Virus record (IMG/VR): IMGVR_UViG_3300044712_000124
Location: 1-21,269 of that record
Source: a virus
DNA: 21,269 bases
Strand: one strand, 5' to 3'
Below the pieces are notes generated by a model. The model was not told where the DNA came from. It saw nothing but the letters and a program-made list of their open reading frames with translations, and did no database searches. A program made the position numbers and the translations under genes. Below are positions 1-21,269 of the stretch, piece by piece. The stretch's first letter is position 1, and the number at the start of each line of letters is the position of its first letter.

Positions 1-240
1 AAGCCGGGCCACGCTTTTAGGTTTGGCCATTAGGAATACGGCTTCAACTACTACCGGTTCGGTAAACCTGGCATAGTCCCCGGTAGCTGCCTTATGGGTT
101 TCTTGGGCGGCCCAAATTGCGGTCGCTAAAGTCTCGCGCCATGGTTTTAGATACTTGGACGCTTCAACGAACCGGCCATTACCCAAGTAGCGTTTAGATC
201 CTTGGGCCGCTGGTCGGCCATAAGCCCTAAAGTAAAACAC
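1..240 (-). CDS. RusA-like Holliday junction resolvase, 3' end beyond window
   Basis: Only the first 80 residues are inside the window, and the reading frame is still open at base 1. RusA enzymes are small dimeric endonucleases that cut four-way DNA junctions during phage replication and recombination. What is seen: an N-terminal strand ending in YGRPAAQGSKRYLG, which fits the family pattern GxPxPxGSxR, then WRE in a helix. A second strand, VVVEAVFLMAKPKSVA, carries the family's PKS signature. The catalytic aspartates would lie further on and cannot be checked. The start is a GTG whose first base is the last base of the preceding TAG stop (TAGTG), so translation is probably coupled to the 54-aa gene. 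This gene was found by translating the left edge directly. The family call is firm; completeness is unknown. Confidence 0.85.
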   Translation of the reverse strand, partial: MFYFRAYGRPAAQGSKRYLGNGRFVEASKYLKPWRETLATAIWAAQETHKAATGDYARFTEPVVVEAVFLMAKPKSVARL

Positions 241-404
241 TAGTTGGCGTTCCAAAACCAAACATGGACGCGCTTACCTAGGTAAACGTCAAAAGTCCAG
301 CGGTCCCCGGTGCCGTCGTACTCGCGGTAAAGCATTACGCCCCAATACCGGTTAGCGCTTAGTTTGGATCCGTTAGCCGGGTACTTGCGCTTAGTGATTT
401 TCAT
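240..404 (-). CDS. Small hypothetical protein, 54 aa
   Basis: A 54-residue reading frame with an ATG that shares its A with the TAA stop of the SSB-like gene (TAATG), and with a TAG stop shared with the GTG of the RusA gene. It fills the gap between these two genes exactly, which is the main reason to believe it. The protein is basic at the N-terminus (MKITKRKYP) and rich in aromatic residues, with a WTFDVYLGKR strand and a VHVWFWNAN end. It looks like a small beta-rich protein. I do not recognise the family. Its position between SSB and resolvase suggests a role in DNA replication or recombination, but that is inference from context only. Confidence 0.7.
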   Translation of the reverse strand: MKITKRKYPANGSKLSANRYWGVMLYREYDGTGDRWTFDVYLGKRVHVWFWNAN

Positions 405-781
405 TAGAACGGTAGATTAGGGTCTACTGGAGTCGCGCCGGTCGAAGCTAAGAAGCTGGCGGCGTCGCCGCTGGTCTCGGTGGCCTCTACGATAGATTCC
501 GCGCGGACCTTGATAGAAGTACCCGGGGTTCCGTCGCGCTTGGTAAATACCTGGGTTCCGTTTATGCGTCCGGTTACGGTTACCTGGCGAACGTCGGCTA
601 GGTTTAGCTGCTCCGAAGTCGTTACGTCGTAGCTGGTTTTGTCTACGGTCTCCCAAAGGCCGGTAGCGTCGTTCTTCTTGCGAACGTCTACGGAAACTTT
701 TAGCGCGGTTCCCCAATCGAAGTTCTTTACGTTGTCTGCCCAACCGGTAACGGTTACTAGTGCTTCGTTTCTAATTGCCAT
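404..781 (-). CDS. Single-stranded DNA-binding protein (SSB-like, OB fold)
   Basis: The protein has 125 aa. The frame is open further upstream to 895, but the ATG at 781 is preferred. It follows the previous stop by four bases, has a GGAAGG ribosome site about nine bases ahead, and the extra upstream residues overlap the replication gene and look unlike SSB. What is seen: alternating strands typical of an OB fold, such as EALVTVTGWADNV near the start and RQVTVTGRINGTQVF with GTSIKVRAESIVEA near residues 65-105. The C-terminus ends in DPNLPF, which matches the acidic, Pro-Phe tip that SSBs use to recruit partner proteins. The expected role is to coat single-stranded phage DNA in the cytoplasm and serve the neighbouring annealing protein, exonuclease and replication initiator. 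Confidence 0.82.
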   Translation of the reverse strand: MAIRNEALVTVTGWADNVKNFDWGTALKVSVDVRKKNDATGLWETVDKTSYDVTTSEQLNLADVRQVTVTGRINGTQVFTKRDGTPGTSIKVRAESIVEATETSGDAASFLASTGATPVDPNLPF

Positions 782-785
782 GGTT

Positions 786-1652
786 CTAATTGCCTTCCGT
801 TTTTTTATCTTGCGCCATGCGGCGTAAACATACTTTACACTTTGCCAGATTTTCGCCATGGTCGCACTTAGGCGGTCCGGCGCGTCCCGCTTCAACTACG
901 GCGGCCCAAGCCTCGCGTTCTTTGTCCCGGGCTTCTTGCTCTAAGCGGCGTTGCTCTCGCTCGCGCTCTATTCGAACCAACCTAGCGGCTTCGGCGTCCG
1001 CTTCTAGTTCTTGCTTGCTCTTAGATCGCTCCGGTAATGGTCCGTCTAGGTGGCGGTCCTGGTTTAGCCATGTTGCGCCATGCGGTATAAACGCCGTAGG
1101 CGGCAGATTAGGGTCCTGGGCGTATCTTTTTACGGCTTCCAGTAGTTCGGCCGCTGTAGCCCGACGTAGGGCCGCCTTGTACGCTGTGAACGCTCCGCGT
1201 CTAGCTAACTTCTTTGGGTAGTGGTCCCAAAATTCCCCAAAATTGGCCAATAGGTTTTCTTCTAATTGTTTTTCTTTTATTTGTTCTTCTTTAGTGGTGC
1301 GATTATCCGCCGTCGGAAAAACCGCCGTCGGATTTTCGCACGCGGTTGGATCATGGATAGTCCAAACCATTGGGCCTAGCTTGCCGTCCGGTAATCTTTG
1401 TTGCTTGGTTACTACGTACTTGGCTTCGATTAGCTCCGCGGCGGCCGCTCTAATGGCGCTCCGGCCGTCTTTGGTATCGCGGGCTATTCGCTCCAGCGTT
1501 AGCGTGTACCCGGTTTCGTGGCTAAGTAGGTACGTTAGTAACCCCTTGGCCTTTAGGCTTAGTCGCTTATCCCTTATCCAACCGTTAGGTATCTGCGTAA
1601 AGTTGGTTTCAAACGGTAGGACTTCCCGGTAGATCCCCGCTAAATTTGACAC
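786..1652 (-). CDS. Replication initiator or helicase-loader-like protein with winged helix
   Basis: The protein has 288 aa. Residues about 30-82 form a winged helix-turn-helix of the type found in phage replication initiators (RLSLKAKGLLTYLL, then TLERIARDTKDGRSAIRAA). Residues 138-201 carry the FGEFWDHYPKK ... PHGATWLNQDRH pattern common at the C-terminus of phage replisome organisers. A charged coiled coil follows (about 213-250), then C263-x-H265-x6-C272-x2-C275, a likely zinc site. The start is a GTG inside the end of the HNH gene (44-base overlap), supported by an AAGGGG ribosome site at normal spacing. No Walker A motif is seen, so it is not itself a helicase. It probably binds the phage origin and recruits host helicase. 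The domain reading is solid; the exact role is inferred. Confidence 0.75.
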   Translation of the reverse strand: MSNLAGIYREVLPFETNFTQIPNGWIRDKRLSLKAKGLLTYLLSHETGYTLTLERIARDTKDGRSAIRAAAAELIEAKYVVTKQQRLPDGKLGPMVWTIHDPTACENPTAVFPTADNRTTKEEQIKEKQLEENLLANFGEFWDHYPKKLARRGAFTAYKAALRRATAAELLEAVKRYAQDPNLPPTAFIPHGATWLNQDRHLDGPLPERSKSKQELEADAEAARLVRIEREREQRRLEQEARDKEREAWAAVVEAGRAGPPKCDHGENLAKCKVCLRRMAQDKKTEGN

Positions 1653-1992
1653 TATAACCCCTTAGTTCGTGCCGGCCGTAATTGTCGTCCAGCGTATACC
1701 ATTTACCCGCTTTGGCGTCGTAAACCGGTATCGTCCTAGGATCCATGTAACGGCTAACCTTCCAACCGTAATTTATGGCCCTGGCCGCCTGGTCCGCGTC
1801 CGCTTCAATTAGGTAATTCATTTTGGAGCATAGCACTAAATAGTTAGAAGGCAAATTTAGATAGCTTTTGGAAGCTGCGCCGCCCATTCCCCGGTTAGCC
1901 CGGTGGTTAGGTGAAATTGCTTCCATTTCGCCGCAACAAACACAACCGCCACCGTCGCGTTCTACTAGCTTGGCGAATTCTTTAGGTGTCAC
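1609..1992 (-). CDS. HNH-family protein, diverged
   Basis: The protein has 127 aa with a GTG start that overlaps the FmdB-type gene by four bases (GTGA). What is seen: C17-V-C19-C20 as half of a zinc site, then PNHRANRGMGG (H30), which is the first His of the HNH fold, then LPSNYLVLC (N50). The usual last motif in related phage proteins is CHxxIE; here it reads MNYLIEAD, so the last His is replaced by N59. The second zinc pair is also incomplete, with one Cys at 55. HNH proteins cut DNA, and in phages they may act in packaging, homing or recombination. This one sits inside the replication operon and not next to a terminase. HNN variants exist in the superfamily, so activity is possible but not assured. 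Confidence 0.72.
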   Translation of the reverse strand: MTPKEFAKLVERDGGGCVCCGEMEAISPNHRANRGMGGAASKSYLNLPSNYLVLCSKMNYLIEADADQAARAINYGWKVSRYMDPRTIPVYDAKAGKWYTLDDNYGRHELRGYSVKFSGDLPGSPTV

Positions 1993-2174
1993 CGGTTGCC
2001 TTTATCGGTGGAGTAGAACCCGGGACTTTTGAACGTAACCGCTGGCGCGTCGTAGATCCTGGTTTGAGGTTGTTTGCATAGCTCGCACTTTAGGGCCGGG
2101 TCGTATTGCTCTAGAGTGCAAGAAACGGTACGCAAAGTTTTACAATTAGCGCAACGGTAGGCGTAGGTAGGCAT
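1989..2174 (-). CDS. FmdB-type zinc ribbon protein
   Basis: The protein has 61 aa. It begins MPTYAYRCANC, the standard opening of the FmdB / putative regulatory zinc ribbon family, with Cys pairs C8-x2-C11 and C30-x2-C33. Near the end it has the family's SPGFYSTD element. Members are single zinc ribbons found in bacteria and phages; the molecular role is not established, and a nucleic-acid or protein-binding regulatory role is usually assumed. A GGGAG ribosome site lies just ahead of the ATG. The upstream 63 bases are AT-rich, and the gene overlaps the following HNH gene by four bases, so the two are probably translated together. Confidence 0.85.
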   Translation of the reverse strand: MPTYAYRCANCKTLRTVSCTLEQYDPALKCELCKQPQTRIYDAPAVTFKSPGFYSTDKGNR

Positions 2175-2237
2175 AGTCTCCCGATTTCATAAGTAATTAG
2201 GGTTTTTGTTTTGAAATAGCGCCGATTCTAAAAGGGA

Positions 2238-2471
2238 TTATTCCCAAGCCGGCCTAAAACCTAGTTGTAATTCTGGTTCGTGGAATTGCCCGGCTAGTTC
2301 TACTTGCGCGTTCGCGGACGTGTCGCGCTCTAGTGGCACTTCGTCCCGGCAACTATGCCGGTTATTCCATTCACGCCATAGCTTTAGTTCGTCGTTTCTG
2401 TCTGCCGCAAACTCCGCACCGCAACTACACCGCTCGGTTATCAACGTTCGCCGACTCCAGCGGTTCGCCAT
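2238..2471 (-). CDS. Small zinc-finger-like hypothetical protein
   Basis: The protein has 77 aa. The N-terminal half has CSCGAEF (C15, C17) and, about 20 residues later, WNNRHSC, so two Cys and a His-x-Cys pair could hold one zinc ion. The second half is acidic and Gln/Glu-rich without clear structure. Small proteins with a CxCGxxF ... W...H..C layout are common in actinobacteriophage early regions and have no assigned function. The gene overlaps the end of the 116-aa coiled-coil gene by 31 bases, and its ribosome site is weak (AGAGC), so its translation may depend on the upstream gene. Confidence 0.65.
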   Translation of the reverse strand: MANRWSRRTLITERCSCGAEFAADRNDELKLWREWNNRHSCRDEVPLERDTSANAQVELAGQFHEPELQLGFRPAWE

Positions 2472-2791
2472 TGTAGCTCTATCATGCGGGCCGAAGTCTG
2501 TACGGCTCCCATAGATTCGCTTAGGTGCCGTAGCTGCGCTTTAGCTCGGTTCACTTGTACCCGGAGTAGCGCGGCTTCTTCTTGCTTTTCCATGCTGGCT
2601 AACTTAGCTAACGCCTGGCGGTCCACTACGGTACCTTGGCCGCTTAGTATCGCCTGGGCTTCCAGTTTGTCGGCTTCCAGCTCGGCTATAACTAGTTTGC
2701 GCTCTAGATCCTCTAGTACGCCTAGCCCGGCTTCGGACCGTCTACGTATTTCGGCCAGTTCTTCGATTACTCCGCCCGGTGTCTCTATCAA
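2441..2791 (-). CDS. Coiled-coil hypothetical protein, 116 aa
   Basis: The reading frame starts with a TTG at 2791 that overlaps the previous TGA stop (TTGA). A GGTGGGGA ribosome site just ahead supports this start. The protein is almost entirely predicted helix with heptad-like spacing: IEELAEIRRRSEAGL, ERKLVIAELEADKLEAQ and RVQVNRAKAQLRHLSES. I do not recognise the family. Its neighbour on the 5' side, the 73-aa protein, is also helical, and the two may pair. Position directly after the annealing protein gene suggests a recombination or replication accessory role, which is inference. Confidence 0.7.
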   Translation of the reverse strand: MIETPGGVIEELAEIRRRSEAGLGVLEDLERKLVIAELEADKLEAQAILSGQGTVVDRQALAKLASMEKQEEAALLRVQVNRAKAQLRHLSESMGAVQTSARMIELQWRTAGVGER

Positions 2792-3009
2792 GATTCCCCA
2801 CCTAGTTCCTCTATGGCTAGTTGCGTGTTTACTAGTCTTATGCTGGTTCGCTCTATTTCCTTGGCTAGTGCGTTGCTATCCACTTGTATTAGATAACCAC
2901 CTAGCCGGGGATTCCCTTGGGCTTGCTTTACTAGCTGGTCTAGCTCTACTAGTTCTTGTAGGTGCGCCGCCTGGATCTTGCGACGCTCTACTAGTTCTTG
3001 GCTATCCAT
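2788..3009 (-). CDS. Small helical hypothetical protein, 73 aa
   Basis: The ATG lies eight bases inside the end of the annealing protein gene, and the TGA overlaps the TTG start of the next gene. The protein is mostly helical and charged: ELVERRKIQAAHLQELVELDQ, then a short GNPRLGGYLIQVDS turn or strand, then a second helix ALAKEIERTSIRLVNTQ. This helix-turn-helix hairpin shape is compatible with a coiled-coil partner protein. No family is recognised. Tight overlaps on both sides support it as a real gene in the operon. Confidence 0.68.
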   Translation of the reverse strand: MDSQELVERRKIQAAHLQELVELDQLVKQAQGNPRLGGYLIQVDSNALAKEIERTSIRLVNTQLAIEELGGES

Positions 3010-3517
3010 TCAACGAAGCTACTTTGGCTTTTATAGCGTCTAGGGTAGCTTCGCCTACCTTGGCTTTTTGGGCTTGAACGTAAAGCTTCCGGGCCTGGTC
3101 TACGTCGGCAATTTTGGCAACTTCATTTAGCCAGTCGGTTACTTTAGGTGCCTTGGGAGTTACGCCGCGCTCGGCCTTTTCCATTTCGGTAGCGCTTGGG
3201 CGCTTGGCCCCGCTGTAGGTGTAGTTAGCTAAGCAACGGCCAATAGCGGACGTTTCCGCGGTCTCCAGCGCCGCCGTTTTCTGGGCCATGCCCACGCCGT
3301 CCACTTCGAACGCCCAACCGGTAGTTTTCGGTAGATCGTTAGCCTGGTCTCCGGCGCTTAGGTATAGCCGGGCTTCGACCACCCAAGTAGATACGCTACG
3401 GTCTGCCGGTGTGGTGTGGTTTATTGTCACTATGCGGGCGTCCGCGTTGCTTGGATCTTCCCAAAAGCGCTTTAGTCGCGCCTCTACGGTTTCGTATTCG
3501 TTTACGTTGTAAGCCAT
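3002..3517 (-). CDS. Probable single-strand annealing protein (Erf/Sak-like)
   Basis: The protein has 171 aa. An N-terminal segment, VEARLKRFWED...ARIVTIN, is followed by a strand STWVVEARLYL and then LETAETSAIGRCLANYTYSGAKRPSATEMEKA (residues about 84-114). The ETSAIGRxLAN motif is characteristic of Erf-type phage annealing proteins and related actinophage proteins. These bind single-stranded DNA and anneal complementary strands. The C-terminal 50 residues form a separate helical tail. The partner is visible: a YqaJ-type exonuclease lies one gene upstream, giving the usual exonuclease plus annealing protein pair. An SSB-like protein is encoded further down the same operon. The family assignment rests on one motif plus context, so I hold it at moderate confidence. 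Confidence 0.65.
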   Translation of the reverse strand: MAYNVNEYETVEARLKRFWEDPSNADARIVTINHTTPADRSVSTWVVEARLYLSAGDQANDLPKTTGWAFEVDGVGMAQKTAALETAETSAIGRCLANYTYSGAKRPSATEMEKAERGVTPKAPKVTDWLNEVAKIADVDQARKLYVQAQKAKVGEATLDAIKAKVASLNG

Positions 3518-3789: not shown

Positions 3790-4716
3790 TTATTTCCTAT
3801 TCACTAAGTAGGGGATTCCGCCCTTACGTGCCTGGCGGGTTATTAGCCATTGGTCGTAAATTAGTCCGCGTCTTGCGTTGCCCATTAGCTGGATAACTTG
3901 GGCCTTGGCCTGGTCTACCTTGGCTTGGGCTGTCTCTAGATCTGCTAGGTAATCCAAGTAGGCCCGCCCGGTGTCGCCTAGCTCTACTTCGACTTCCTGG
4001 CTAATCTCCGGGTGCTGGTACCTTAGCGCTTCTTGGGTCGCTGTAAACGGTGCGGTTAGCTCCGGGGTATCGTCGCTTAGTAGTAGCTCTATAAACTTAT
4101 TGGCTTCATTTACGGCTAGTTCTTGCTCAAACTCGGAACCCTCTACGGCGAATTCGTGGTATCTGGATCCACCAAATAGGACGGCAACGGTAGCCGTCTG
4201 TAGGCCAAGTACGTAAAGATACCATTGGACTTGGGCGCGATAGCTAGGCGGGACGGTTAGTACGCCGTCTTCGTTCTTCCAGTACGTTTCGTCTCTAGCG
4301 GTCTTTACTTCTAGTAGCTGTAGTTCACCGGTAGGGGTTAGGTATAGGCCGTCCGGGTTCGCTCTATGTAAGGAATTTTCCTTACTAGCCCACGTACCGC
4401 AATTTACGAACGTAATACCCGGCCGGTTCTCCGCGAACTTTTGGGCTATCGCCGGTTCTAGCCGGTGGCCCCACTCCATAGCGTCGCTAGTTTCCTGGTC
4501 GGGGATTAGGCCCTTCTTCTTAGCCCATAGCGCGTACGGACTAACGAACGAACTAAGCCCTAGCAAAATACCGACGTCGCTGCCACCTATCGCGCCGGGT
4601 TCGTTGCGTAGTCGGTGCCAGTCCGGGCTATTGTCCTCGAAGTACCCAAGGTTATCCCCAAGTAGTTTCGCGGTAACTTCAATAGGTGCGGTGCGTAAGT
4701 CTGATAGTGTAGCCAT
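3790..4716 (-). CDS. YqaJ-type viral recombination exonuclease
   Basis: The protein has 308 aa and is a member of the lambda-exonuclease-like PD-(D/E)xK superfamily. Seen in order: W33-R35 ... IGGSDVGILLGLS (GGSD at 44-47), SPYALWAKKKGL, WGHRLEPAIA (E87), NPDGL (D122), LLEVKTA (E136-x-K138), and the Q162-x-QWYLYVLG helix. These are the full active-site set expected for a metal-dependent 5'-3' exonuclease that resects double-stranded ends and hands the tail to an annealing protein. The length is normal for the family, and the last 80 residues are a helical extension. A GGAAGGGAC ribosome site precedes the ATG. The annealing protein gene lies two positions downstream, as expected for a working pair. 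Confidence 0.92.
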   Translation of the reverse strand: MATLSDLRTAPIEVTAKLLGDNLGYFEDNSPDWHRLRNEPGAIGGSDVGILLGLSSFVSPYALWAKKKGLIPDQETSDAMEWGHRLEPAIAQKFAENRPGITFVNCGTWASKENSLHRANPDGLYLTPTGELQLLEVKTARDETYWKNEDGVLTVPPSYRAQVQWYLYVLGLQTATVAVLFGGSRYHEFAVEGSEFEQELAVNEANKFIELLLSDDTPELTAPFTATQEALRYQHPEISQEVEVELGDTGRAYLDYLADLETAQAKVDQAKAQVIQLMGNARRGLIYDQWLITRQARKGGIPYLVNRK

Positions 4717-4809: not shown

Positions 4810-5121
4810 TTACAGAACGTCGAATAGGCGGGTTAGCGCGTCGGCCAAGTATTTACTTCTACCGGTGGCGTCCTGGATTAGTCTTAGGTCGCGTTTAGCC
4901 TGGTCTGCCCAACGGTCTAGGTAGTCTATGGATCCGGGTACGGCGTCGCCCTGGAGCGCGCCTAAAAGGTCGTATAGGTCGTCGTCGAAGAAGTGCGACG
5001 AACTTAGCCGGTGGCGCTCTAATAGATCTGCCAAGGGTAACCTAATGGTTTCGAAGTCCTCGGACCAAAGTAGGTTCGCGTCGCGTAATAGCGCTATTGC
5101 TTCCGATAGTTGTTTATCCAT
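4810..5121 (-). CDS. Hypothetical protein, 103 aa, between sigma-like factor and exonuclease
   Basis: The start ATG shares a base with the stop of the sigma-like gene (TAATG), so it is coupled to it. The protein is helical and acidic: LSEAIALLRDANLLWSEDF, LPLADLLERHRLSSSHFFDDDLYDLLGAL, then YLDRWADQAKRDLRLIQD. I recognise no family. A 93-base gap with a hairpin follows before the exonuclease. Being coupled to a sigma-like factor, it could be a partner of that factor, for example a regulator of its activity, but nothing in the sequence proves this. Confidence 0.68.
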   Translation of the reverse strand: MDKQLSEAIALLRDANLLWSEDFETIRLPLADLLERHRLSSSHFFDDDLYDLLGALQGDAVPGSIDYLDRWADQAKRDLRLIQDATGRSKYLADALTRLFDVL

Positions 5122-5702
5122 TAGTCCCCTAGGTTGTCGCTCATTTTCTTTAGTGCGCGGTGAATAGCCGTCTTAGTGGCTTCTACACTCATGCCGCGTA
5201 ATTCGGCTATTTCTTCATGCGCCAAGCCGTCCCGGTACCGTAGTCCTAATAGTTCCCGGGTAGTCGGTTGTAGATCGTAGTAGGCGCTTCGAACGTCCAT
5301 AAGGATAGCCGCCGCTTCACTACTTGCGCTTGGGTTGCCTACTGGTTGCCCGGTAACCGGGTTTACCAGAACGGTACCTAGCGTGGTTTCTTCAAAGATA
5401 AACGGCATAACCCGGCGAATACGCTCCACGCTGTAGAACCGGCCGGCCGTTAGCGGTTGGCCAATACGTGCCGTAGTCTCTCGGGCGCAATACTTGGACG
5501 CTTCACGCTTTAGGGATACGTAGAGACGTCCCCTACCGGCGTCGGTTAGTCTCCAGCGCTCTAGGTGGTGAACGTTCTGGAAAAGCCATAGCGTTAGGTG
5601 GCTTGCTAGGTCGTCTTCTTCGACGTTTTTCCAGCGACTACCAATACGCCAAGCCAATTTAGTAGCTAGTTGTAGTTCGGCCTCGGTCGGTCCATTACTC
5701 AT
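5121..5702 (-). CDS. Sigma-factor-like protein (sigma-70 regions 2 and 4)
   Basis: The protein has 193 aa. Residues about 8-75 (LAWRIGSRWKNVEEDDLASHLTLWLFQN ... LYVSLKREASKYCARE) resemble region 2 of ECF-type sigma factors. Residues about 134-190 (AYYDLQPTTRELLGLRYRDGLAHEEIAELRG ... ATKTAIHRALKKM) are a clear region 4 helix-turn-helix. The middle 50 residues are unlike standard linkers and Pro/Gly-rich. Such proteins occur in the early regions of actinobacteriophages and may redirect host RNA polymerase to phage promoters. The start overlaps the end of the phosphoesterase gene by eight bases. An HTH regulator that does not bind polymerase is the main alternative. Confidence 0.75.
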   Translation of the reverse strand: MSNGPTEAELQLATKLAWRIGSRWKNVEEDDLASHLTLWLFQNVHHLERWRLTDAGRGRLYVSLKREASKYCARETTARIGQPLTAGRFYSVERIRRVMPFIFEETTLGTVLVNPVTGQPVGNPSASSEAAAILMDVRSAYYDLQPTTRELLGLRYRDGLAHEEIAELRGMSVEATKTAIHRALKKMSDNLGD

Positions 5703-6954
5703 TTATTACCCTAGTGTCCGGCATGGATCTAGCCCAACGATAAGGCGCTACCCACTCTAGTTTCTGGTCTTTGGTAATGGTCCCGCGCATTACTACCGGG
5801 TCGTTTACCAGCCCCGCGGTTTGGCTAAACCAGCTAGAAGCGTCGCATAGTGCGCCGCCCTGTACCCACTCGGTGCCGCCTACTAGTTGTTGATACCTGG
5901 CGTGGTGGTAATGGCCGGTAAAAAGTACGTCACTATCGCCCATAGGGTCGCGGGTCGCTGCCTGGCGCTTGAACCAGTCCAGTATTTTAGCTTCGACGGA
6001 TCCAGAACCGCGGGCTACGTGTCCATGCGTTAGGCCGATTACGTGGCCCTGGACCTCTACGGTTAGGCTTAGGCGGTCCCGCTGCGGTAGGGAAAAGGTA
6101 ATACGGTCCCGGCCGGCTAGTTGGAACGCTTCGGCTATTTGTTCGATTATGGCTAGGTCGTCGTTGTCGCTAAACGTTGTATACGCTTTACCGTCCTGGC
6201 GGTTCTCACCATGGTTACCGGGTACGGCCGCCACGTGGATAGGTAGGCCAGTTTCGTCTAGGGCTAGTAGGAATTCACTTACCAACCTACGGACTAGCTT
6301 TACCTGGTCGCGGCGGTCTAGTTGAACGCTAAAAGTTTGGGTAGCGTACCAACCACTAATACCCTCTACTAGATCCCCGGTAATTGGGATAAAGATAGAA
6401 CCGGCCGCGTTGCCCGCTTTGGCTAGGTCCTTTAGATCCTGTAGCGCTATGTTGGCTAATTGTCTTACGCGGGTAACCATACCGGCCACTCCGTCGCCGT
6501 CCGCTTGGCCGGCCTGAAAGTCGGTTAGGTGTAACCAGTAGGTGCGGTCGTTAGTCCCGGTTTGGGACTTACCCGGCTTGCTCTTGCGGGCCGCGTCTAG
6601 TAGGTCCTCTAGATCGCGCAATACCGCGAGCGCCGACGCTTTACGGCGTAGCTTGGCCTTGAAGTAGTAGAACCGTTTTATTTCGCCTTGGCCTACGTTG
6701 CCGTCCCAAGCGCGCATTTCTACGGTGTCGCCGTCTATTTCAAAGTCTGCCGGGTCCATGCCCTCGGGGAGTAGCTGGGCCAAGAAGTCGGACCAGTCTT
6801 TAGGCGGTGCGGCTTGCGGTGGAGTTGTAACGTATCCGCCGCGTTCGGTAATTACCAGCGGCTCCCAACCGGCCGGGTGCGCGGCTTTACCCCGGCGTAC
6901 CTCTACGGCCCCGCCGTCGGTGCCTATCTGCAGTAGTTTGTCTAGATCCGGCAT
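5695..6954 (-). CDS. Mre11-like metallophosphoesterase (DNA nuclease)
   Basis: The protein has 419 aa. The calcineurin-like core runs from about residue 138 to 355. Seen are LTDFQAG (D145, with Q147 where most family members have His), ITGDLVEG (G193-D194), VPGNHGE (N247-H248), THGH (H310, H312) and GHYHH (347-351). These bind two metal ions. The D-x-Q first motif is the form I know from actinophage proteins annotated as Mre11-like double-strand-break nucleases. The first 135 residues form an extra N-terminal region, Pro-rich and then helical, of unknown function. The ATG follows directly after the stop of the HTH-type gene. Likely role: nuclease processing of DNA ends or structures in early infection. 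Confidence 0.82.
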   Translation of the reverse strand: MPDLDKLLQIGTDGGAVEVRRGKAAHPAGWEPLVITERGGYVTTPPQAAPPKDWSDFLAQLLPEGMDPADFEIDGDTVEMRAWDGNVGQGEIKRFYYFKAKLRRKASALAVLRDLEDLLDAARKSKPGKSQTGTNDRTYWLHLTDFQAGQADGDGVAGMVTRVRQLANIALQDLKDLAKAGNAAGSIFIPITGDLVEGISGWYATQTFSVQLDRRDQVKLVRRLVSEFLLALDETGLPIHVAAVPGNHGENRQDGKAYTTFSDNDDLAIIEQIAEAFQLAGRDRITFSLPQRDRLSLTVEVQGHVIGLTHGHVARGSGSVEAKILDWFKRQAATRDPMGDSDVLFTGHYHHARYQQLVGGTEWVQGGALCDASSWFSQTAGLVNDPVVMRGTITKDQKLEWVAPYRWARSMPDTRVINE

Positions 6955-7179
6955 TTATTCCCCTTCGAATAGTGGAGTAGCCCCGCATAGGCATAGGTTA
7001 GAACGGTGTTGGCTTACCCCGCCGGTACTTGCCTTTAGGCCTACGCGCTTTAGCTCTATTACCACCTTGGCAATAGTTAGGCCGTAGTAGTTCCCGGTAC
7101 CGTTTAGTATCTGTAGGTACCTGGCCCTAATCGCTTCCGGCATGTTGTCGGCCTGGGCCTGTAGCGCGCATTTACTCAT
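6955..7179 (-). CDS. Small HTH-type protein, first gene of the left operon
   Basis: The protein has 74 aa. The segment RYLQILNGTGNYYGLTIAKVVIELKRVGLKASTGGVSQHR fits a helix-turn-helix with the recognition helix near ASTGGVSQHR. It resembles the small phage DNA-binding proteins with a ...VxxHRxxxC ending, and here the tail is HRSNLCLCG (two Cys). It could bind DNA as an early regulator, or be a small-terminase-like protein. There is no clear ribosome site ahead of the ATG; instead two TATAAC hexamers lie 8 and 14 bases upstream, so the transcript may be leaderless. The gene is the natural site of first expression in the left block. Confidence 0.65.
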   Translation of the reverse strand: MSKCALQAQADNMPEAIRARYLQILNGTGNYYGLTIAKVVIELKRVGLKASTGGVSQHRSNLCLCGATPLFEGE

Positions 7180-13811: not shown

Positions 13812-14665
13812 TAGTGGATAACTTCGTATCTAGGCGAATAGGTTAGCTGGACGTTGAAATTTAGGTCTACGTCGTCACCGTTTACGGCCAAGCTTGTAGT
13901 TCCCGGTGGTAGTAGGAATAGCTTGGGCGCTGCCGATAGTCGCGAATAGCTGTTTACGCCGTCGGCGTCGGTAACTGCTCCAGTTTCGGTATTCACCGTA
14001 AGCACTTCGCCACTAAAGATTTGGCCGAAGCCAAAGCCTTGGGTTCCGTTGCTAATGACTAGGTTTTGTACCGGGCCGGTAATGGTCCATACCGGGTAAG
14101 CTGCGACGTCTCCAGCGTTTACTACGGTAACGGTACCTAGCTGGCTGGAGCTAGAAACCTTTAGCTTGGATAGCTGCGGCAATAGCCCGCGGCCGGTACC
14201 ACCGGTACCAATAGTAAACGTTTCTTCTAAACCGGAGCGCCAAAACGGATTAGGCGCGCGTAGCATTAGTCCCCAAGTTGCCCAAGTTAGGCCGGCCTGG
14301 TCGTTGTCGTAAACGGTTTCACCGCCGCCGGTGTAATGGACTTCTAGGTAAAGACTTTCGCCACCGGTGTAGGTTGCCCTTAGCTTTGGAGCGCCTAGGC
14401 TGTCCTGGAGAATTTTACCCAAGCGTCTTAGTTTGGTTTCCACGTCGCCGCGGCTAGTGCCAAAGACGGTTACCGGTAGATCTACGTCGCGGGCCTGGCG
14501 CTTAGTGTGTCGCCATACTCCACCGTCTCCGGCGGATTCTTCAATACGTACCGCGGTAGCCGGAATACCAAATCCAACGATTCCGCTTCTAAGAATGTAA
14601 GTAGTATCGTCGAAAGTGATTACGTCGCCGTTAGCGCCCTCTAGGGAATAAGTTACGTCTACCAC
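13811..14665 (-). CDS. Distal tail protein (Dit-like)
   Basis: The protein has 284 aa. It begins VDVTYSLEGANGDVITFDD and has RQARDVDLPVTVFG followed by a regular helix (VETKLRRLGKILQDS) and ESLYLEVHYTGG. Then comes a long C-terminal beta region with APNPFWRSG and YPVWTITGPVQNLVISN. This order is that of phage Dit proteins, which form the ring at the tail tip that connects the tail tube to the hub and fibres. It follows the tape measure gene, the normal place. The GTG start overlaps the tape measure stop by seven bases and has GGTGG ahead of it. Confidence 0.83.
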   Translation of the reverse strand: MVDVTYSLEGANGDVITFDDTTYILRSGIVGFGIPATAVRIEESAGDGGVWRHTKRQARDVDLPVTVFGTSRGDVETKLRRLGKILQDSLGAPKLRATYTGGESLYLEVHYTGGGETVYDNDQAGLTWATWGLMLRAPNPFWRSGLEETFTIGTGGTGRGLLPQLSKLKVSSSSQLGTVTVVNAGDVAAYPVWTITGPVQNLVISNGTQGFGFGQIFSGEVLTVNTETGAVTDADGVNSYSRLSAAPKLFLLPPGTTSLAVNGDDVDLNFNVQLTYSPRYEVIH

Positions 14666-17460
14666 GAAGCTACCACCGGCGCGCGTCTCATAGCCTGAAT
14701 TAGGGCCTGTTCGCTGTCTAGCGATTGGTTAGGTGCCGCGTTGTATACCAAGGTCTTACCCCCGCCTAGTCCTATCATGCGTTCGAAGTCTGCCAACGGT
14801 GTAACGACTTCCGGGCCGGCCTCACCGATTAGGGCGAATGTTGGCCGGTCTACGTATCCACCGTCCGCGAACGGAACCGCTCTACCTACAATAGATTTAC
14901 CGCCGACGGTCGAATACTTACTTTGTAGTACGTCAATTCTACCGATTAGGTCGTTTATTTCGCGCGTAAGCCCGGCGGTTTTGCCCTTCATGTCGCCTAC
15001 CTTTTCGGTAAAGACGTCTTGAATGTTGCCAAGCTTTTCGGTGAACTGATCCCTGGCCTTAGTCATGGATTCGTTTAGCTTTGTCTGCGCGTTGAAAATT
15101 GCGGCCGCTAGATCCTGGTCCGCCTTTGCCATAGCTTCGGTAAACCTAAGATTTATGGCTGCGGTAGCTTCGGCGTAAATAACTTCTTCGGCGGCTAGTG
15201 CGGTTACTAGCTCCGATTGGGTTTGGGCGTAAAGGTCCTTTAGGGCTTGGGTAGCTAGTCCGGCCTTATCGTAAATAGCCTGGCTTAGTCCGTCCATGCC
15301 GGTTTCGGATTGCGTTTCCAGTTCACCGAATAGGTATTGGAGCTGCTCGCGGGTTTCTGGCGCGGCGTTTAGAAGCGCCATAGCCATTTCGTTACCGGCT
15401 TCGCCGCCTAGGGCTACGACCTGTTCGATAAACGTTTGGGAGAACCCGGCCGCGTTTAGCGCTCCAGCGTTGGTTACTAGATCCTTAGCCGCCTTTAGCT
15501 TGCTAGTAAGCTCTAGTACCAGCTTATCTACCCGGCCGCCAACTTCTTCGGACGTAAATAGTTCGCCTACGTTTACGGCTACGGCGCTGCGGTAAGCGTC
15601 CCGAAGTCTATTCATAGACTCCGCGATTATGTCCGCCTGGCGCTTAGCAAAGTCGGCTTCGATTCCAGCTACGCGGTTGTTATGGTCCTTTAGCGCGTCC
15701 GCTAGGCCCTTATCGCGCTCCGCTATAGAGTCGCTTACGGTTGTGTTGTAGTCGCTGTAGGCGTCGGCTACGGCGGTCGTATAAGCCTTATTAGCTTCTT
15801 TTACGGTTTTGTTGTAAGCCTTGGTAGCGGACTTGATACCCTTATCCGCTTCTTTTACCGCGGACTTTACAACGTCCGCCGGGCTTTTACCCCTAGCTCC
15901 GCCGCCGGCTGTACCAGCTCCAAGTGCTGCGCCGGAAAAGTCTACTTTTGTATTTCTAGGCGCGCCCGCTTTGTAGGTTCCGGTAATCGGATCGTATACC
16001 TGGCCGGCCGTCCCGCTGTAAGGTGTACCGGTTGTAGTAAATTCGGTGTTTACCTTTATGTTTATAGGCTTTATGTTGGCAAAGTCCATAAATTGCTTTA
16101 GGACCGGCTCCAGAATACCGAATAGCCAGTTAAGCGCGTTGATAACGTCGCCTACCAACTGCGCGACTATCTTTAGCGCTGCGCCTAGGACCTCACCGGC
16201 GATACTTGCAAGTAGCCCAATAATCGGGATTACGTACTGCTGTAAGTAGCCGAATAGTTCTTGGAACTTAGGGGTAAGGTAGGCAATTACTTCTAGTAAT
16301 GCCGGTAGGAATGAAGTTACCAGCGGTACTAGTGCGTTCACTAGGTCTACGATAACCGGCGCGAACATAATAAAAAGATCTATAAGCGGCGGTAGAAGCT
16401 GGCCTACGACCTCTACAACTAGGTCTATAAGAATACTAAAGACTTCTAGCAACGGATCGAATAGCGGCGATAGCTGCGTAATAGCGTCCGCGGCTAGTTC
16501 AAATAGCGGGATTAGTTTTATGAATAGGTCGGCCAACATTGGGCCAACTTCGGAAATAATAGGGTTGATTGCCCCAATAACTTCGCCTAGCGCTGGTAGT
16601 AGCGCTGTACCGGCGGCGGCCGCGGTGTTGGTTAGCTCCGCTTGCATTGTCTGTAAAGCGTTGTCGAAGCTATCGCCGTAGGCTACGAAGTCCCCGGCGG
16701 CTACTCCCAAGTTCTCCATTAGGTACGCTTGGGTGGCTAGGGCCTTTTGGCTAGGAGTTAGCGCCTGGTCTACGCTTGCGGTAATCCCGGCGGCGAACGC
16801 GGCTTGGCGTAGTGAAGCGTCGTCTAGGAATAGGGAATACTGCCTTAGCGGTTCGAACTGGCCTTGCATAGCCGATTGGATCGCGCTTAGCGCTTCTTCC
16901 GCGGTTCCACCGTTGAAGCTGGCTAGGTCTCCGGCGGCCTGGACCAAGCTGGTAGAGAAGTTAGCGGCCGATTCACCGGCTAGGCCGGAACTGGTAGCGA
17001 TTACACCGAATTGTTTAGCAGCACCTAGGGCGGCGGCGGCGGTTAGTCCGGCGGTCTTGGCGGCGTTAGCGCCGAATTCCTGGACGATTGCGGCCGATTC
17101 CCCAAATACCTGCTCTACACCTAGGGATTCTACGTTTAGGGCCTTAGCTGCGTTTATGGCGTTGCCAACGAACGCGCCTACACCGGCAACCGCGGCGGCG
17201 GCCAAAGCGCCCTTTAGAAGTCCTTTTACGCTGGATCCAAAGCTATCGCCGTAGCCCTTACCGGCCTTCTTACCTGACTTCTTGGCTTCGTCTACCCAAA
17301 AGTCTTTAGTATTTTTGTCGAAACCGTCTTCGAATTCTTCCCCGGCTTTTGCGCCGGCTTTACTCATGTCTTCAAGTAGCCGGGTCTTTAGGTACTTTTC
17401 TAGATCTACGGTACCGGGGACTATGTTTACGAAGGCGGTAGCTAGTGCGCGTTCGGCCAT
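14659..17460 (-). CDS. Tape measure protein
   Basis: The protein has 933 aa, the largest gene of the window. It sets tail length and travels with DNA into the host. Seen: an N-terminal coiled region; a first hydrophobic helix (LKGALAAAAVAGVGAFVGNAI, about 80-100); and a long array of hydrophobic helices in about residues 285-475 (LFIKLIPLFELAADAI, LLPPLIDLFIMFAPVIVDLV). Then come two charged coiled coils with repeated KAYNKTVKEANKAY-like and TKARDQFTEKL-like elements. The C-terminus has the family's FADGGYVDRPTFALIGEAGPEVV element (about 866-885). At the usual 0.15 nm per residue the tail would be near 140 nm, an inference. The ATG directly follows the stop of the frameshifted chaperone. Confidence 0.95.
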   Translation of the reverse strand: MAERALATAFVNIVPGTVDLEKYLKTRLLEDMSKAGAKAGEEFEDGFDKNTKDFWVDEAKKSGKKAGKGYGDSFGSSVKGLLKGALAAAAVAGVGAFVGNAINAAKALNVESLGVEQVFGESAAIVQEFGANAAKTAGLTAAAALGAAKQFGVIATSSGLAGESAANFSTSLVQAAGDLASFNGGTAEEALSAIQSAMQGQFEPLRQYSLFLDDASLRQAAFAAGITASVDQALTPSQKALATQAYLMENLGVAAGDFVAYGDSFDNALQTMQAELTNTAAAAGTALLPALGEVIGAINPIISEVGPMLADLFIKLIPLFELAADAITQLSPLFDPLLEVFSILIDLVVEVVGQLLPPLIDLFIMFAPVIVDLVNALVPLVTSFLPALLEVIAYLTPKFQELFGYLQQYVIPIIGLLASIAGEVLGAALKIVAQLVGDVINALNWLFGILEPVLKQFMDFANIKPINIKVNTEFTTTGTPYSGTAGQVYDPITGTYKAGAPRNTKVDFSGAALGAGTAGGGARGKSPADVVKSAVKEADKGIKSATKAYNKTVKEANKAYTTAVADAYSDYNTTVSDSIAERDKGLADALKDHNNRVAGIEADFAKRQADIIAESMNRLRDAYRSAVAVNVGELFTSEEVGGRVDKLVLELTSKLKAAKDLVTNAGALNAAGFSQTFIEQVVALGGEAGNEMAMALLNAAPETREQLQYLFGELETQSETGMDGLSQAIYDKAGLATQALKDLYAQTQSELVTALAAEEVIYAEATAAINLRFTEAMAKADQDLAAAIFNAQTKLNESMTKARDQFTEKLGNIQDVFTEKVGDMKGKTAGLTREINDLIGRIDVLQSKYSTVGGKSIVGRAVPFADGGYVDRPTFALIGEAGPEVVTPLADFERMIGLGGGKTLVYNAAPNQSLDSEQALIQAMRRAPVVASW

Positions 17461-18162: not shown

Positions 18163-18174
18163 GCTTACTAAGTA

Positions 18175-18208
18175 CCGGGCCGGCGGGACCGCATTTCCAC
18201 CGGCCCGG
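18175..18208 (-). terminator. Intergenic hairpin after the major tail gene (attenuator-like)
   Basis: CCGGGCCGG (18175-18183) pairs perfectly with CCGGCCCGG (18200-18208) around a 16-base loop, beginning 16 bases after the stop of the major tail gene. It is very GC-rich, but the minus-strand sequence after it has no U-run, so it is more likely an RNA-stabilising hairpin or a partial terminator that lowers expression of downstream genes. Confidence 0.6.
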
Positions 18209-18224
18209 ATTCTTTAGTAGTGGC

Positions 18225-18755
18225 TTACGCCTCGAACTCGCTGTAGAAGATGTCTACGGCGCGGCCGGCAGTCATGTAAGCCGTAACGGTGATTCCGTAA
18301 CCGACTGCCTCGCCGTTGGCGATTGTCTGCGGCTCTACGGTTAGAACCTCACCGGCTGGAATGTAGTGGCGGATAACCTTAGTGCCGTCTACTACGTCCA
18401 ATACGAACGACTTGCGGCCGCCGGTGGTAGTAGGGTCTAGGGTAATCTTGCCGCCGGTCATGGTTGCACCGAAGTAAGTTTCGATTGCGTCCTGGTTGGA
18501 CTCCATTAGCATAAAGGAGTAAGTTACGGTACCTTCGGTAACGACCTCGCGTACTAGGTCGGCGTTCTGCCAAGCCCTAATCTGGTTGGTTGCGCGGTCG
18601 GTAGTAAAGCTAACGCCGTCGGTTGATACGTAGCCTAGGTCGGTAAAACCGACTGCTAGGGTTGAGTCGCTTGCGGTAGGTGCGGTGGTAGACGTAGGAC
18701 CGACGTAAACCCGGCCGGTAATACCTACTACCACGTTATCGGCGGTAAGTGCCAT
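18225..18755 (-). CDS. Major tail protein (tail tube subunit)
   Basis: The protein has 176 aa. It opens ADNVVVGITGRVYVGPTSTTAP and has FTDLGYVSTDGVSFTTDRAT near residues 37-56, the recognisable opening of actinophage tail tube proteins. Then come strands YSFMLMESNQDAIETYFG and KSFVLDVVDGTKVIRHYIPAGEV and a final AVGYGITVTAYMT strand. It stacks in hexamer rings to form the tail tube. A strong TAGGAG ribosome site precedes the ATG, in line with high expression. It is flanked by hairpins on both sides, and it lies between tail terminator and chaperone genes, the standard order. Confidence 0.9.
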   Translation of the reverse strand: MALTADNVVVGITGRVYVGPTSTTAPTASDSTLAVGFTDLGYVSTDGVSFTTDRATNQIRAWQNADLVREVVTEGTVTYSFMLMESNQDAIETYFGATMTGGKITLDPTTTGGRKSFVLDVVDGTKVIRHYIPAGEVLTVEPQTIANGEAVGYGITVTAYMTAGRAVDIFYSEFEA

Positions 18756-18784
18756 TTTGTTTCTCCTAATTAGGTGGGTTGTTT

Positions 18785-18816
18785 GGAGTTTTTACGCTCC
18801 GGGTTTCCGCGGCGCG
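18785..18816 (-). repeat. Two small hairpins upstream of the major tail gene
   Basis: In the 66-base gap between the tail terminator and major tail genes, the minus strand has TTCCGC-GCC-GCGGAA (6-bp stem, 3-base loop) and then GGAG-CGTAAAAA-CTCC (4-bp stem). The first could protect the 5' end of a processed major tail mRNA. Neither has a U-run. The second is weak and may be chance. Confidence 0.4.
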
Positions 18817-18821
18817 GAAGC

Positions 18822-19205
18822 CTAAACGTCGGAACCTTTTACGATTAGTTCGACGTCAATACTGCGGCGTTCTTGTTGGCCTTCTTCGGTAGTGCGAACT
18901 GGACCAAGCCTAACGGTAACCCGCTTGATTTCCTGGCCGACGGATCCGCGTATCAAAGATTCGACCAAAAGCCCTAGGGAACTGGCGGTAGCGTAGTCGT
19001 CCGCGAATACGTCTAGGGTTAGGGTAGCGCGCTTAGTGACGTATTGTACTTCGTCGTTGTAAGCGGCAATAATTACTAGTTCTTTGGCGTAAGGGCCTTC
19101 GCCCGGTTGCGCCTTCTTAGTGCCAACTCTCACGCCCTGGCCGGCTAGTGCCGTATTGAAGTAGCTAACCAAAGTAGCTTCTATGTCCGGGAAGATTACC
19201 GCCAT
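18822..19205 (-). CDS. Tail terminator / tail completion protein
   Basis: The protein has 127 aa. It begins FPDIEATLVSYFNTALAGQGVRVG and contains LVIIAAYNDEVQYVTKRATLTLDVFADDYATASSLGLLVESLI and VTVRLGPVRTTEEGQQERRSIDVELIVKG. This is the alpha/beta pattern of siphovirus tail terminators (lambda gpU / SPP1 gp17 type), which cap the tube and join it to the head. Gene order supports it: it lies directly before the major tail gene and after the connector genes. Two bases separate it from the previous gene. Confidence 0.8.
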   Translation of the reverse strand: MAVIFPDIEATLVSYFNTALAGQGVRVGTKKAQPGEGPYAKELVIIAAYNDEVQYVTKRATLTLDVFADDYATASSLGLLVESLIRGSVGQEIKRVTVRLGPVRTTEEGQQERRSIDVELIVKGSDV

Positions 19206-19207
19206 GT

Positions 19208-19585
19208 TTACGCCTTATAGGTTTCGTCGTATAACGCTTTACGTAGGTGTCCTACGCCGTCGCGCTTTTGTGTGTAAAAGTGGACGCGGGTAGCCAATTC
19301 GCCGTCGGCATTAGATCTAACGTTTACCCTTGGTCTTTTGTTGCCGGGGTTATCCCATTCAACACTAAAACCGGCGTCAGCGTATCCGGTAAGGTTTCCG
19401 CCCGGGCCTTTTTCTGCGGCGCTTGCGGTTGCTTGCGCGTTCGCTGCTACCGCTTGGCCGGTCTTTACTAGAAGGTCTCTAATGCTTTTGTTAGCTTTTA
19501 GAATTTCCTCTACGCCTTTTTCGTCTACGATAACGCGGACCTTTTGGCCGCCACCTAATAAGTTCTTCGGTGGTTTTCTAGCCAT
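19208..19585 (-). CDS. HK97 gp10-like tail completion / neck protein
   Basis: The protein has 125 aa with a basic N-terminus. It reads VRVIVDEKGVEEILKANKSIRDLLVKTGQAVAANAQATASAA, then a strand region ending in RVNVRSNADGELATRVHFYTQKRDG and a final helix HLRKALYDE. The long helix followed by a strand with DG and a final RKALY helix is the HK97 gp10-like pattern. These proteins sit at the neck between connector and tail. It overlaps the previous gene by eight bases. Confidence 0.75.
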   Translation of the reverse strand: MARKPPKNLLGGGQKVRVIVDEKGVEEILKANKSIRDLLVKTGQAVAANAQATASAAEKGPGGNLTGYADAGFSVEWDNPGNKRPRVNVRSNADGELATRVHFYTQKRDGVGHLRKALYDETYKA

Positions 19586-19910
19586 TCCTACGCCTTAGCG
19601 GTACAACTACACCGGCCGCAAAGTCGAACGGTGGCGCGTATACTTGCGCTTGGCCGTCCTTTACCCATTCGGTCCCGCGGATTACGAAGCGGTCGCCTTC
19701 TTGTATTTGGGTTCCATTAGGTAAGTAGAGTGTAACTTTAGCGTCTATAGCGTCGCGTTCGACGTCCACCGGTTCGCTACTGGAGCCGAAGCCAACTAGT
19801 GCATTTTGCACCGTAATAGTAGTAACGCTGTAAGTCTTATTGCCGTACTGGTCGGTCGAAGTCGCGGTACGTCTTTTGATAGTTACGGTTTCGCCGCCGC
19901 TGTAGAACAT
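19578..19910 (-). CDS. Head-tail stopper-like protein
   Basis: The ATG at 19910 (110 aa) is preferred because it forms a TGATG overlap with the previous gene and has an AGG ribosome site; a TTG at 19928 would add six residues. The protein is strand-rich: GGETVTIKRRTATSTDQYGNKTYSV, then NALVGFGSSSEPVDVERDAIDAKVTLYLPNGTQIQEGDRFVIRGTEWVKDGQA. The DxVTLYLPxGTxIxxGDRFxIRG segment is typical of phage head closure (stopper) proteins, small beta barrels that close the portal after packaging. Confidence 0.8.
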   Translation of the reverse strand: MFYSGGETVTIKRRTATSTDQYGNKTYSVTTITVQNALVGFGSSSEPVDVERDAIDAKVTLYLPNGTQIQEGDRFVIRGTEWVKDGQAQVYAPPFDFAAGVVVPLRRRNG

Positions 19911-20323
19911 CAGTTTACCTGGATCCAAACGGTGTCATAGGCCGCTAGGTTAGCGGTGTGGCCTTGGTTTACTTCGAACGCCTTACCGCGTGACTGCGGC
20001 GCTAGTAGTGTCTTTTCGTCGTCGGTTAGCCATACGTCGCGGTCGCTTCCAAAAGTGCGCCCTTGGCCGAATGGTCCTGTAGTTTGTTGTAGGTAGGTTA
20101 GGTTGCCGGGGTTTCTAAGTACCCGGGTAACCATGCGTACTACCACCATGGTTACTAAATCTTCGTTTAGGGTGCCGGCGTCTATGCGCGCTTGGATCCC
20201 TGGATAGTGCGCCGTAATAACGGCTTCGGCGTCGGTAATAAGTGCGGTAATTACGTCGGTATCCGTCGGTGCGTCGTTTCCAACCCACCTATCTAAAACG
20301 TCTTGATAAGTTGCCCAAGCCAC
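19910..20323 (-). CDS. Head-tail adaptor protein
   Basis: The protein has 137 aa with a GTG start preceded by AGAAGG. The first 90 residues are helical: WATYQDVLDRWVG, DTDVITALITDAEAVITAHYPGIQARID, LNEDLVTMVVVRMVTRVLRNPGNL. Then GPFGQGRTFGSDRDVWLTDDEKTLL follows. This is the pattern of HK97 gp6/SPP1 gp15-like adaptors, with the xDExxLL segment near the C-terminus. The adaptor ring binds the portal and carries the stopper. It lies directly after the capsid gene, as in many siphoviruses. Confidence 0.83.
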   Translation of the reverse strand: MAWATYQDVLDRWVGNDAPTDTDVITALITDAEAVITAHYPGIQARIDAGTLNEDLVTMVVVRMVTRVLRNPGNLTYLQQTTGPFGQGRTFGSDRDVWLTDDEKTLLAPQSRGKAFEVNQGHTANLAAYDTVWIQVN

Positions 20324-20352
20324 TTTATTACCCTTCTTCTTTGTTTGTAGTG

Positions 20353-20382
20353 GCCGGGACCGGGCCTAAACCCGGCCCCGGC
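20353..20382 (-). terminator. Intergenic hairpin after the major capsid gene (attenuator-like)
   Basis: GCCGGGACCGGG (20353-20364) pairs with CCCGGCCCCGGC (20371-20382) with a single mismatch and a six-base loop, 13 bases after the capsid stop. It is extremely stable for its length, but the minus strand continues with CACTACAAAC, no U-run. It could partly end transcription or protect the 3' end of capsid mRNA. A similar hairpin follows the major tail gene. Confidence 0.65.
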
Positions 20383-20395
20383 GGTTACGTAGTTA

Positions 20396-21253
20396 TTAGG
20401 CTACGTCTACGGTAATCTTGCGGAACGCCGCGGTGTTAGAGACGCGGAAACCAACCTCAATTTCGGCGAGAACTGCAAACATGTTCTGCTGGAATAGGTT
20501 AATAGTGTCCTCACCTGCGGTAAGGGTTGCCTGGTCGCTAATCTTAATAACGACGTCGGAAACCTGTCCCCAAACTGCCTGGCTCCAGTCACCGGTAAAG
20601 CCAAGTACGTCGGTGGTGGTGTCTAGGTAGGCAGCCTGTGACTTGAATACCGGACGGCCAAGTAGCGAACCGATAGTACCTTGTGTCTGTAGGTCGCCTA
20701 GGAATAGTGGGCGGCTCTGCTCGTCCTTTAGTCCTAGTAGTGCGGCCTCGCCCTGCGGGCTAATGATAAAGCCGTTTAGGTCGTAACCGGCTCCACCTAC
20801 GCCAGAAATAGCAGATACTAGGCCGTCGTAAGTCATTTCGACGGCGGTAGCACCGGATAGGGTGTCAAAGTCTGATCCCGGCGCGGTTCCATGGAACGCG
20901 GTAGAGTCGAACTTCTTGGCTAGTGCCGCTGGTAGGCGGTCTGCTAGTGCGCTGTAAAGCGCTGGTAGGTCGCGACGGAACTCGTTAGAGAAGGTCTCAA
21001 TTACGGCCAACTTGTAAGGACGTAGAACCTTGGTAGCAGCGCTGCCGTTGGAAACTGGCTTTACTGCGGTCTCTCCAACCCAAGCGGCGGTAGGCTCTCC
21101 GGTAATTACGTTGATAGCTGCGCCGTTGCCTGGTAGCTCTACCCTGCGGGCTGCGCGCTGGATTACGGAAGTTTCCGCTACCTTTGCTAGGATCTCATTT
21201 GATACGGCGGCCGGTAGAGAAATTCCGGACGATCCGCGGTTTAGGTCTGCCAT
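20396..21253 (-). CDS. Major capsid protein, HK97 fold
   Basis: The protein has 285 aa. It begins DLNRGSSGISLPAAVSNEILAKVAETSVIQRAARRVELPG, then GEPTAAWVGETAVKPVSN, then KLAVIETFSNEFRRDLPALYSALADRLPAALAKKFDSTAFHG, which is the long spine helix of the HK97 fold. Later come YDLNGFIISPQGEAALLGLKDEQSRPLF and LLGRPVFKS, and the A-domain strands at the end. There is no long N-terminal delta domain, so a separate scaffold may be encoded to the right, outside the window. AAAGGAG lies ahead of the ATG. A strong hairpin follows the stop. Confidence 0.93.
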   Translation of the reverse strand: MADLNRGSSGISLPAAVSNEILAKVAETSVIQRAARRVELPGNGAAINVITGEPTAAWVGETAVKPVSNGSAATKVLRPYKLAVIETFSNEFRRDLPALYSALADRLPAALAKKFDSTAFHGTAPGSDFDTLSGATAVEMTYDGLVSAISGVGGAGYDLNGFIISPQGEAALLGLKDEQSRPLFLGDLQTQGTIGSLLGRPVFKSQAAYLDTTTDVLGFTGDWSQAVWGQVSDVVIKISDQATLTAGEDTINLFQQNMFAVLAEIEVGFRVSNTAAFRKITVDVA

Positions 21254-21269
21254 GTTAGCAAACTCCTTT

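Follow-up and report, generated by a model that had tools for sequence, protein, structure and literature searches.

The record and its leucine codons

The stretch of DNA analysed here, which we call the window, is an entire IMG/VR virus record (IMGVR_UViG_3300044712_000124, 21,269 bases), a fragment of a siphophage genome in which leucine is written mostly as CTA. We observed that CTG, CTC and several other short words are nearly removed from its coding strand in all reading frames, and that most of the CTA bias follows from this removal. Gene calling gave 33 genes, every one of them on the minus strand and none on the opposite strand; the first (404-730) is a mechanical open reading frame (ORF), shortened to lessen overlap. 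The features referred to below are collected in Table 1.

Table 1. Features of the window, with leucine codon counts where available
Feature	Position	Strand	Content
RecE-like exonuclease gene	3790..4716	-	CTA 27/37 Leu
Exonuclease-family gene (phrog_284)	5695..6954	-	CTA 27/39 Leu
Tape measure protein gene	14659..17460	-	CTA 65/98 Leu
Major capsid protein gene, query for relatives	20396..21253	-	CTA 21/27 Leu
Small gene	2788..3009	-	CTA 11/11 Leu
Small gene	6955..7179	-	CTA 9/9 Leu
Densest CTAG cluster, spanning two small genes	2641..3000	-	13 copies/360 bases
Near-loss of CCTG, CTGT, CCTC, TGTG, CTCG (coding strand) and of GATG/CATC, TTAA, ATAT (both strands)	1..21269	-	

Adjoining the exonuclease-family gene is a gene with a sigma-70 region 4 domain (5121-5702, minus strand).

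A first-pass annotation of this sequence had pointed to the CTA codons and to an excess of the tetranucleotide CTAG, and our counts bear out both observations as well as the cluster listed in Table 1. CTA accounts for 376 of the 594 leucine codons in the 33 genes (63%), followed by CTT (74), TTA (55), TTG (45, four of which are start codons, so that the leucine total without TTG starts is 590), CTG (28) and CTC (16). CTAG occurs 173 times in the 21,269 bases, where base composition would give 80.3. This count also exceeds a first-order Markov simulation (123.7 +/- 11.5, maximum 157 in 60 runs), but it is only 0.89 of the second-order, trinucleotide expectation of 194.5; the over-representation thus holds at first order and disappears at second order. 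CTAG is frequent because CTA and TAG are frequent, which rules it out as a selected word, and the lack of a CTAG-depleting repair that had been proposed is an unneeded explanation. The annotation had further taken the trait to be a property of the phage rather than of one imported segment, and we agree: the CTA share of leucine ranges from 0.17 to 1.0 per gene, CTA-rich genes occur all along the window and the excess of CTA and CTAG is present in each half. GTA, for its part, makes up 50% of the valine codons.

Words lost in every reading frame

Word counts were compared with two null models. In null 1 the synonymous codons were permuted in 100 shuffles, keeping both the protein and its codon usage; in null 2, which also preserves the protein, codons were drawn from the third-base composition. 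Against null 1 the coding strand contains 89 CTG where 249 are expected, 62 CTC where 164 are expected and 40 TGT where 125 are expected. The depletion of CTG extends to the second frame (36 vs 173) and the third (25 vs 48), and CTA is enriched out of frame as well (244 vs 112 in the second frame). CTG, CTC, TGT, TCA, TGA and TGC are all depleted on the coding strand both in frame and out of frame.

Against null 2, 11 tetramers with at least 15 expected copies fall below 0.1 of expectation on the coding strand. Observed and expected counts are 0/52 for CTGT, 1/86 for GATG, 1/86 for CCTC, 1/69 for CCTG, 1/30 for TGTG, 3/93 for CTCG, 4/67 for CATC, 7/82 for CTCA and 6/71 for CTGA, while the palindromes TTAA (4/52) and ATAT (3/45) are also below 0.1. 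The pentamer pairs ACGGG/CCCGT and CACGG/CCGTG have no copy on either strand. Several words are missing in one orientation only: over the whole window the coding strand carries CCTG once and CAGG 82 times, CTGT once and ACAG 50 times, CCTC once and GAGG 35 times, TGTG once and CACA 22 times. Among longer words, CCAGG occurs 64 times and CCTGG once, and AGACC, which we take to be the EcoP1 Type III site, occurs 50 times and GGTCT once. As a side observation, GGAGG/CCTCC, a canonical ribosome-binding core, has zero copies on either strand of the window.

Relatives of the window still carry most of the words that it is missing. They were gathered by a capsid search of IMG/VR, of which the best 80 of 286 relatives were kept as loci (L numbers below denote loci). 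In homologous blocks (87 pairs at 60% identity or more, from 31 loci, with window blocks counted once per pair), the counts in window and relatives are 0/175 for CTGT, 0/152 for CCTC, 1/130 for CCTG, 0/122 for TGTC, 4/206 for GATG and 23/281 for CATC. The reverse complements CAGG (333/333), GAGG (187/213) and ACAG (188/240) stay near the relatives' level. At the 1,056 conserved leucine positions CTA is used at 743 in the window vs 356 in the relatives. TTAA is counted 58 times in the window blocks and 12 times in the relatives, though the entire window has only four TTAA, because the same window blocks are counted repeatedly; the loss of TTAA and ATAT is common to most close relatives and not specific to the window.

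The choice among leucine codons can be predicted from codons for other amino acids. We trained a conditional-logit model of frame-independent words of 2-4 bases on all non-leucine codons of the window and applied it to 587 leucine codons. It predicts CTG at 4.8% (4.6% observed) and CTC at 2.5% (2.6% observed), together with CTA at 40% vs 64% observed, TTA at 23% vs 9% and CTT at 21% vs 13%. Per leucine codon its likelihood (-1.164) slightly exceeds what the window's own leucine usage gives (-1.187). Avoidance of CTG- and CTC-containing sites, which the first-pass annotation had listed among possible causes, is therefore supported as the proximate cause, given the depletion out of frame and the prediction of leucine use from non-leucine word preferences. 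Five-fold cross-validation was carried out on 51 sets, namely the window and 50 loci, with near-duplicates such as L083/L087, L099/L100 and L013/L014 retained and with loci shorter than 12 kb, with more than 12% minority-strand ORFs or with fewer than 3,000 codons left out. Here the window gains 0.185 nats per codon from the word model over codon usage and ranks fourth of 51 behind L077, L100 and L073. Since word models outperform codon-usage models in the window, we conclude that word removal accounts for most of its CTA bias and leaves part of it unexplained. L124, L132 and L138 share a high CTA share (0.31-0.37 of leucine), but unlike in the window the bias does not follow words: their word models do worse than codon usage, and those trained on other amino acids predict CTA at just 0.12-0.23, so that their CTA preference behaves as a true codon preference. 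A gain from making words strand-specific is not limited to the extreme phages, L101 showing 0.040 with little word gain, and is therefore not used as proof.

Relatives, likely host and word loss in other phages

No near-identical phage was matched by megablast among 50,697 phage records, and a search with the RecE-like gene returned one weak relative. The nearest capsids among named phages are those of Mycobacterium prophages (44-46%); among bacterial genomes they are found in rumen Clostridia and Spirochaetia assemblies (51-55%) and in a Microbacterium (34%). Because relatives (L016, L018 and L100) carry genes for WhiB, an actinobacterial regulator family, the host is likely to be an actinobacterium, judging from gene content. 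In three relatives the WhiB gene runs opposite to the structural genes, at L100:16721-17086 (-), L157:10138-10431 (-) and L155:9089-9439 (+).

To rank word loss on equal lengths, eliminated tetramers were counted in 78 sets, including the same near-duplicates and four named controls. The window, with 14 (2 palindromic, 6 lost on both strands and 6 one-sided), comes third after L077 (28) and L073 (15), and the median is 1; among the controls, T7 and Hum25 have one each and McProf and Spartoi none. Three or more one-sided eliminated words occur in 8 of the 78 sets. The relatives eliminate varying 4-bp palindromes (AGCT, GATC, GTAC, CCGG, GGCC, GCGC and others), which is what restriction avoidance predicts.

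Some phages have nearly lost a trinucleotide. In L073 (8 observed, 179 expected), L270 (8/92) and L243 (6/56), which are mutually 70-78% alike, hardly any CTG is left on the coding strand, and in L077 (10/114), which belongs to one phage with L149, hardly any CTC; in each case the loss is confined to that strand. L277 (7711 bases), L278 (11614 bases) and L279 (14778 bases) are one phage at 99.9-100% identity, and there CTC (8/237) and GAG (14/176) are lost on both strands. The GAG left over in this phage stands almost only in TGAG and GGAG contexts, AGAG and CGAG being at zero. The source of these phages is a set of 64 further loci, most of them without any such rule. A separate asymmetry appears in L057, L232, L236, L237 and L259, whose coding strands have 0-1 copies of CCCC vs 18-37 of GGGG. 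An apparent CTTC flip in the first part of L099 was dismissed, since its first 1,692 bases align inverted to L100 at 99.2%, which points to an inversion or an assembly join.

Possible causes of word loss and comparison with known systems

From these observations, we hypothesize, with about even confidence for and against, that the CTA preference of the window is mostly what selection against short DNA words has left behind, the selection being for escape from sequence-specific host restriction, orientation-dependent enzymes included. The eliminated words would then be recognition sequences of host defences. Of these, TTAA, ATAT and GATG/CATC would have disappeared from both strands as sites of ordinary restriction enzymes, and the words missing on one side would be asymmetric sites that persist in one orientation; in this way the phage may escape enzymes dependent on a pair of head-to-head sites (Type III or Type ISP-like), as phage T7 escapes EcoP15. 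With the CTG and CTC words removed, CTA (with CTT, and with TTA where no TTAA forms) is left for leucine, and CTAG rises with CTA and TAG. We stress that the system may work like Type III restriction, not that it is one, because the words are shorter than Type III sites and several are lost at once.

Several points weigh against restriction escape. Known Type III sites have 5-6 bases, whereas the eliminated words have 3-4, the trinucleotides CTG and CTC being largely depleted already, and several one-sided words at once would need several enzymes or one degenerate site. Some of the retained orientations are themselves depleted under null 2 (GAGG 34/99, CGAG 26/86, CACA 21/67, ACAG 50/96), and CTA exceeds its word-model prediction. 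Finally, a survey of restriction-site avoidance did not find strand-asymmetric avoidance of Type I or Type III sites to be systematic (PMC6286503).

The alternative that survives best, though we consider it improbable, is avoidance at the level of mRNA, in which a host ribonuclease (e.g. a MazF-like toxin) cuts the words in transcripts and only the sense strand is affected. It suits a window whose genes all run in one direction and whose one-sided words are gone from the sense strand in every frame. Cutting of mRNA does not explain, however, why GATG/CATC, TTAA, ATAT, ACGGG/CCCGT and CACGG/CCGTG are lost on both strands, nor why the L277-L279 phage lacks GAG and CTC on both. Genes on the opposite strand bear on the question directly, and for these we compared, in nats, the word energies of a gene read on the DNA strand with those of its own transcript. 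The sole opposite-strand gene of the L077 phage (L149:2553-3230, 226 codons), the only long open frame at its place, fits the DNA-strand reading better by 8.4 nats, and all 16 of the longest same-strand genes of that phage fit the same-strand reading, by 6.7-86.6 nats. This one gene speaks for a rule of the DNA strand rather than of the mRNA.

Other results of this comparison do not decide between the two and count among the points against restriction escape. Relatives of L149:2553-3230 were not found outside its own contig. The WhiB gene of L100 favours the transcript by 2.2 nats, four plausible opposite-strand genes of the L018 phage are mixed at -12.0, -1.3, +7.7 and +0.3 nats (positive values favouring mRNA), and WhiB of the L016 phage stands at +0.6 nats on the same scale, which settles nothing. 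Some same-strand genes even fit the opposite-strand model better: one of 14 short genes in L100 (by 14.5 nats), one of six in the L016 phage and two of six in the L018 phage. Further candidates were rejected, three minus-strand ORFs of L099 (12367-13802) being antisense by the codon positions of their substitutions and L149:3750-4316 (minus strand) being set aside as antisense on its translation.

We regard as quite unlikely a mutational origin, in which a context-dependent, strand-biased process such as cytosine deamination left TG and TC low and TA high. The coding-strand dinucleotide ratios (TG 0.58, CA 0.66, TC 0.62, TA 1.52) do fit changes from CA/TG to TA. On held-out codons, however, the fit improves by 0.085 nats when tetramers are included in addition to shorter words and by 0.031 nats with pentamers, so that a nearest-neighbour mutation pattern is insufficient. 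Words that share a mutable trinucleotide also differ sharply, CATG being at expectation (47/47) while CATC is at 4/67, and CTGG being retained (72/113) while CTGT (0/53), CTGA and CTGC vanish; moreover, the GC content is still 53%. Mutation pressure alone is unlikely because words of 4-5 bases improve prediction and because CATG and CATC diverge.

Still harder to sustain is codon adaptation, the host tRNA supply of the first-pass annotation, whereby an abundant host or phage tRNA-Leu(UAG) would make CTA the best translated codon. The excess of CTA over the word model (24 points, with TTA and CTT losing) may be a codon-level effect, and the closer relatives are moderately CTA-rich, mostly at 0.15-0.38 of leucine and at 0.28-0.35 in the six closest by capsid identity (L002-L007). 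As the main cause it is not supported, since the effect is independent of frame: the depletion of CTG and CTC is just as strong out of frame and not confined to in-frame codons, and held-out codons are predicted worse by codon usage than by words. ARAGORN found no tRNA gene in the window, and 32 relative loci contain no tRNA-Leu, their only two tRNAs being Phe and Arg; the suggested tRNA-Leu(UAG) is thus found in neither. CTA makes up 6-19% of leucine in all 19 sampled 20-kb segments of small actinobacterial genomes, and no share above 0.19 was seen in these segments (chosen by size from the class of a Microbacterium genome) or in 29 short ribosomal loci, so that hosts with the same preference, which would have made the trait ordinary, are absent from this sample, a weak test with respect to the real host.

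Least probable of all is a constraint on replication strands, in which the words act as start trinucleotides for primase, or as some other signal of the lagging strand, and are removed or favoured on one of the two template strands: other phages do lose CTG, CTC or CCCC on one strand, but TAG is enriched as much as CTA, so the gain of CTA is not strand-specific, CTGG is kept while its sister words vanish, the L277-L279 loss is on both strands, and we know of no reason for a phage to shed priming sites. The point in its favour from the window itself is that CTG is lost and CTA gained, both being start sites of bacterial DnaG primases, which initiate on d(CTG), d(CTA) or d(CCC) (PMC5429622).

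Returning to escape from restriction, we can extend the hypothesis, speculatively and with more doubt than belief, to a recurrent and undescribed agent of selection that would recognize very short CTG/CAG and CTC/GAG words, often on one DNA strand, that would most likely be a defence system, and in response to which several phage lineages of different hosts (the window, L073/L270/L243, L077 and L277-L279) have recoded whole genomes. When a phage strongly prefers one codon, this can arise as a side effect of losing words, and codon usage read as tRNA adaptation or as a guide to the host can mislead; out-of-frame and leave-one-amino-acid-out tests separate the two. If one-sided words are marks of orientation-dependent restriction, its record in phage genomes has a scale not recognized as a systematic effect in the published survey (PMC6286503), and lost words could predict the specificity of unknown defence enzymes in uncultured hosts.

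The loss of words to dodge bacterial defences is known for viruses; its scale and one-sidedness here are unusual, and we found no prior report of one-sided loss of many 3-4-base words in a literature search that covered few subscription papers. As in the restriction-site avoidance described for phages by Rusinov et al. 2018 (PMC6286503), short palindromes are nearly lost from the window (TTAA and ATAT) and the loss is independent of reading frame; unlike in the avoidance surveyed there, the eliminated tetramers are mainly non-palindromic (12 of 14), and for several of them the loss affects a single strand. The strand bias of T7 with respect to EcoP15 sites, which a review treats as the model of Type III strand bias (PMC3874151), is reproduced by our T7 control (CTGCTG 36, CAGCAG 0). 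The window resembles T7 in keeping asymmetric words in a single orientation (CAGG over CCTG, CCAGG over CCTGG, AGACC over GGTCT), and differs from it in that the words have 3-5 bases and not 6, that several are lost together and that some of the retained orientations are partly depleted.

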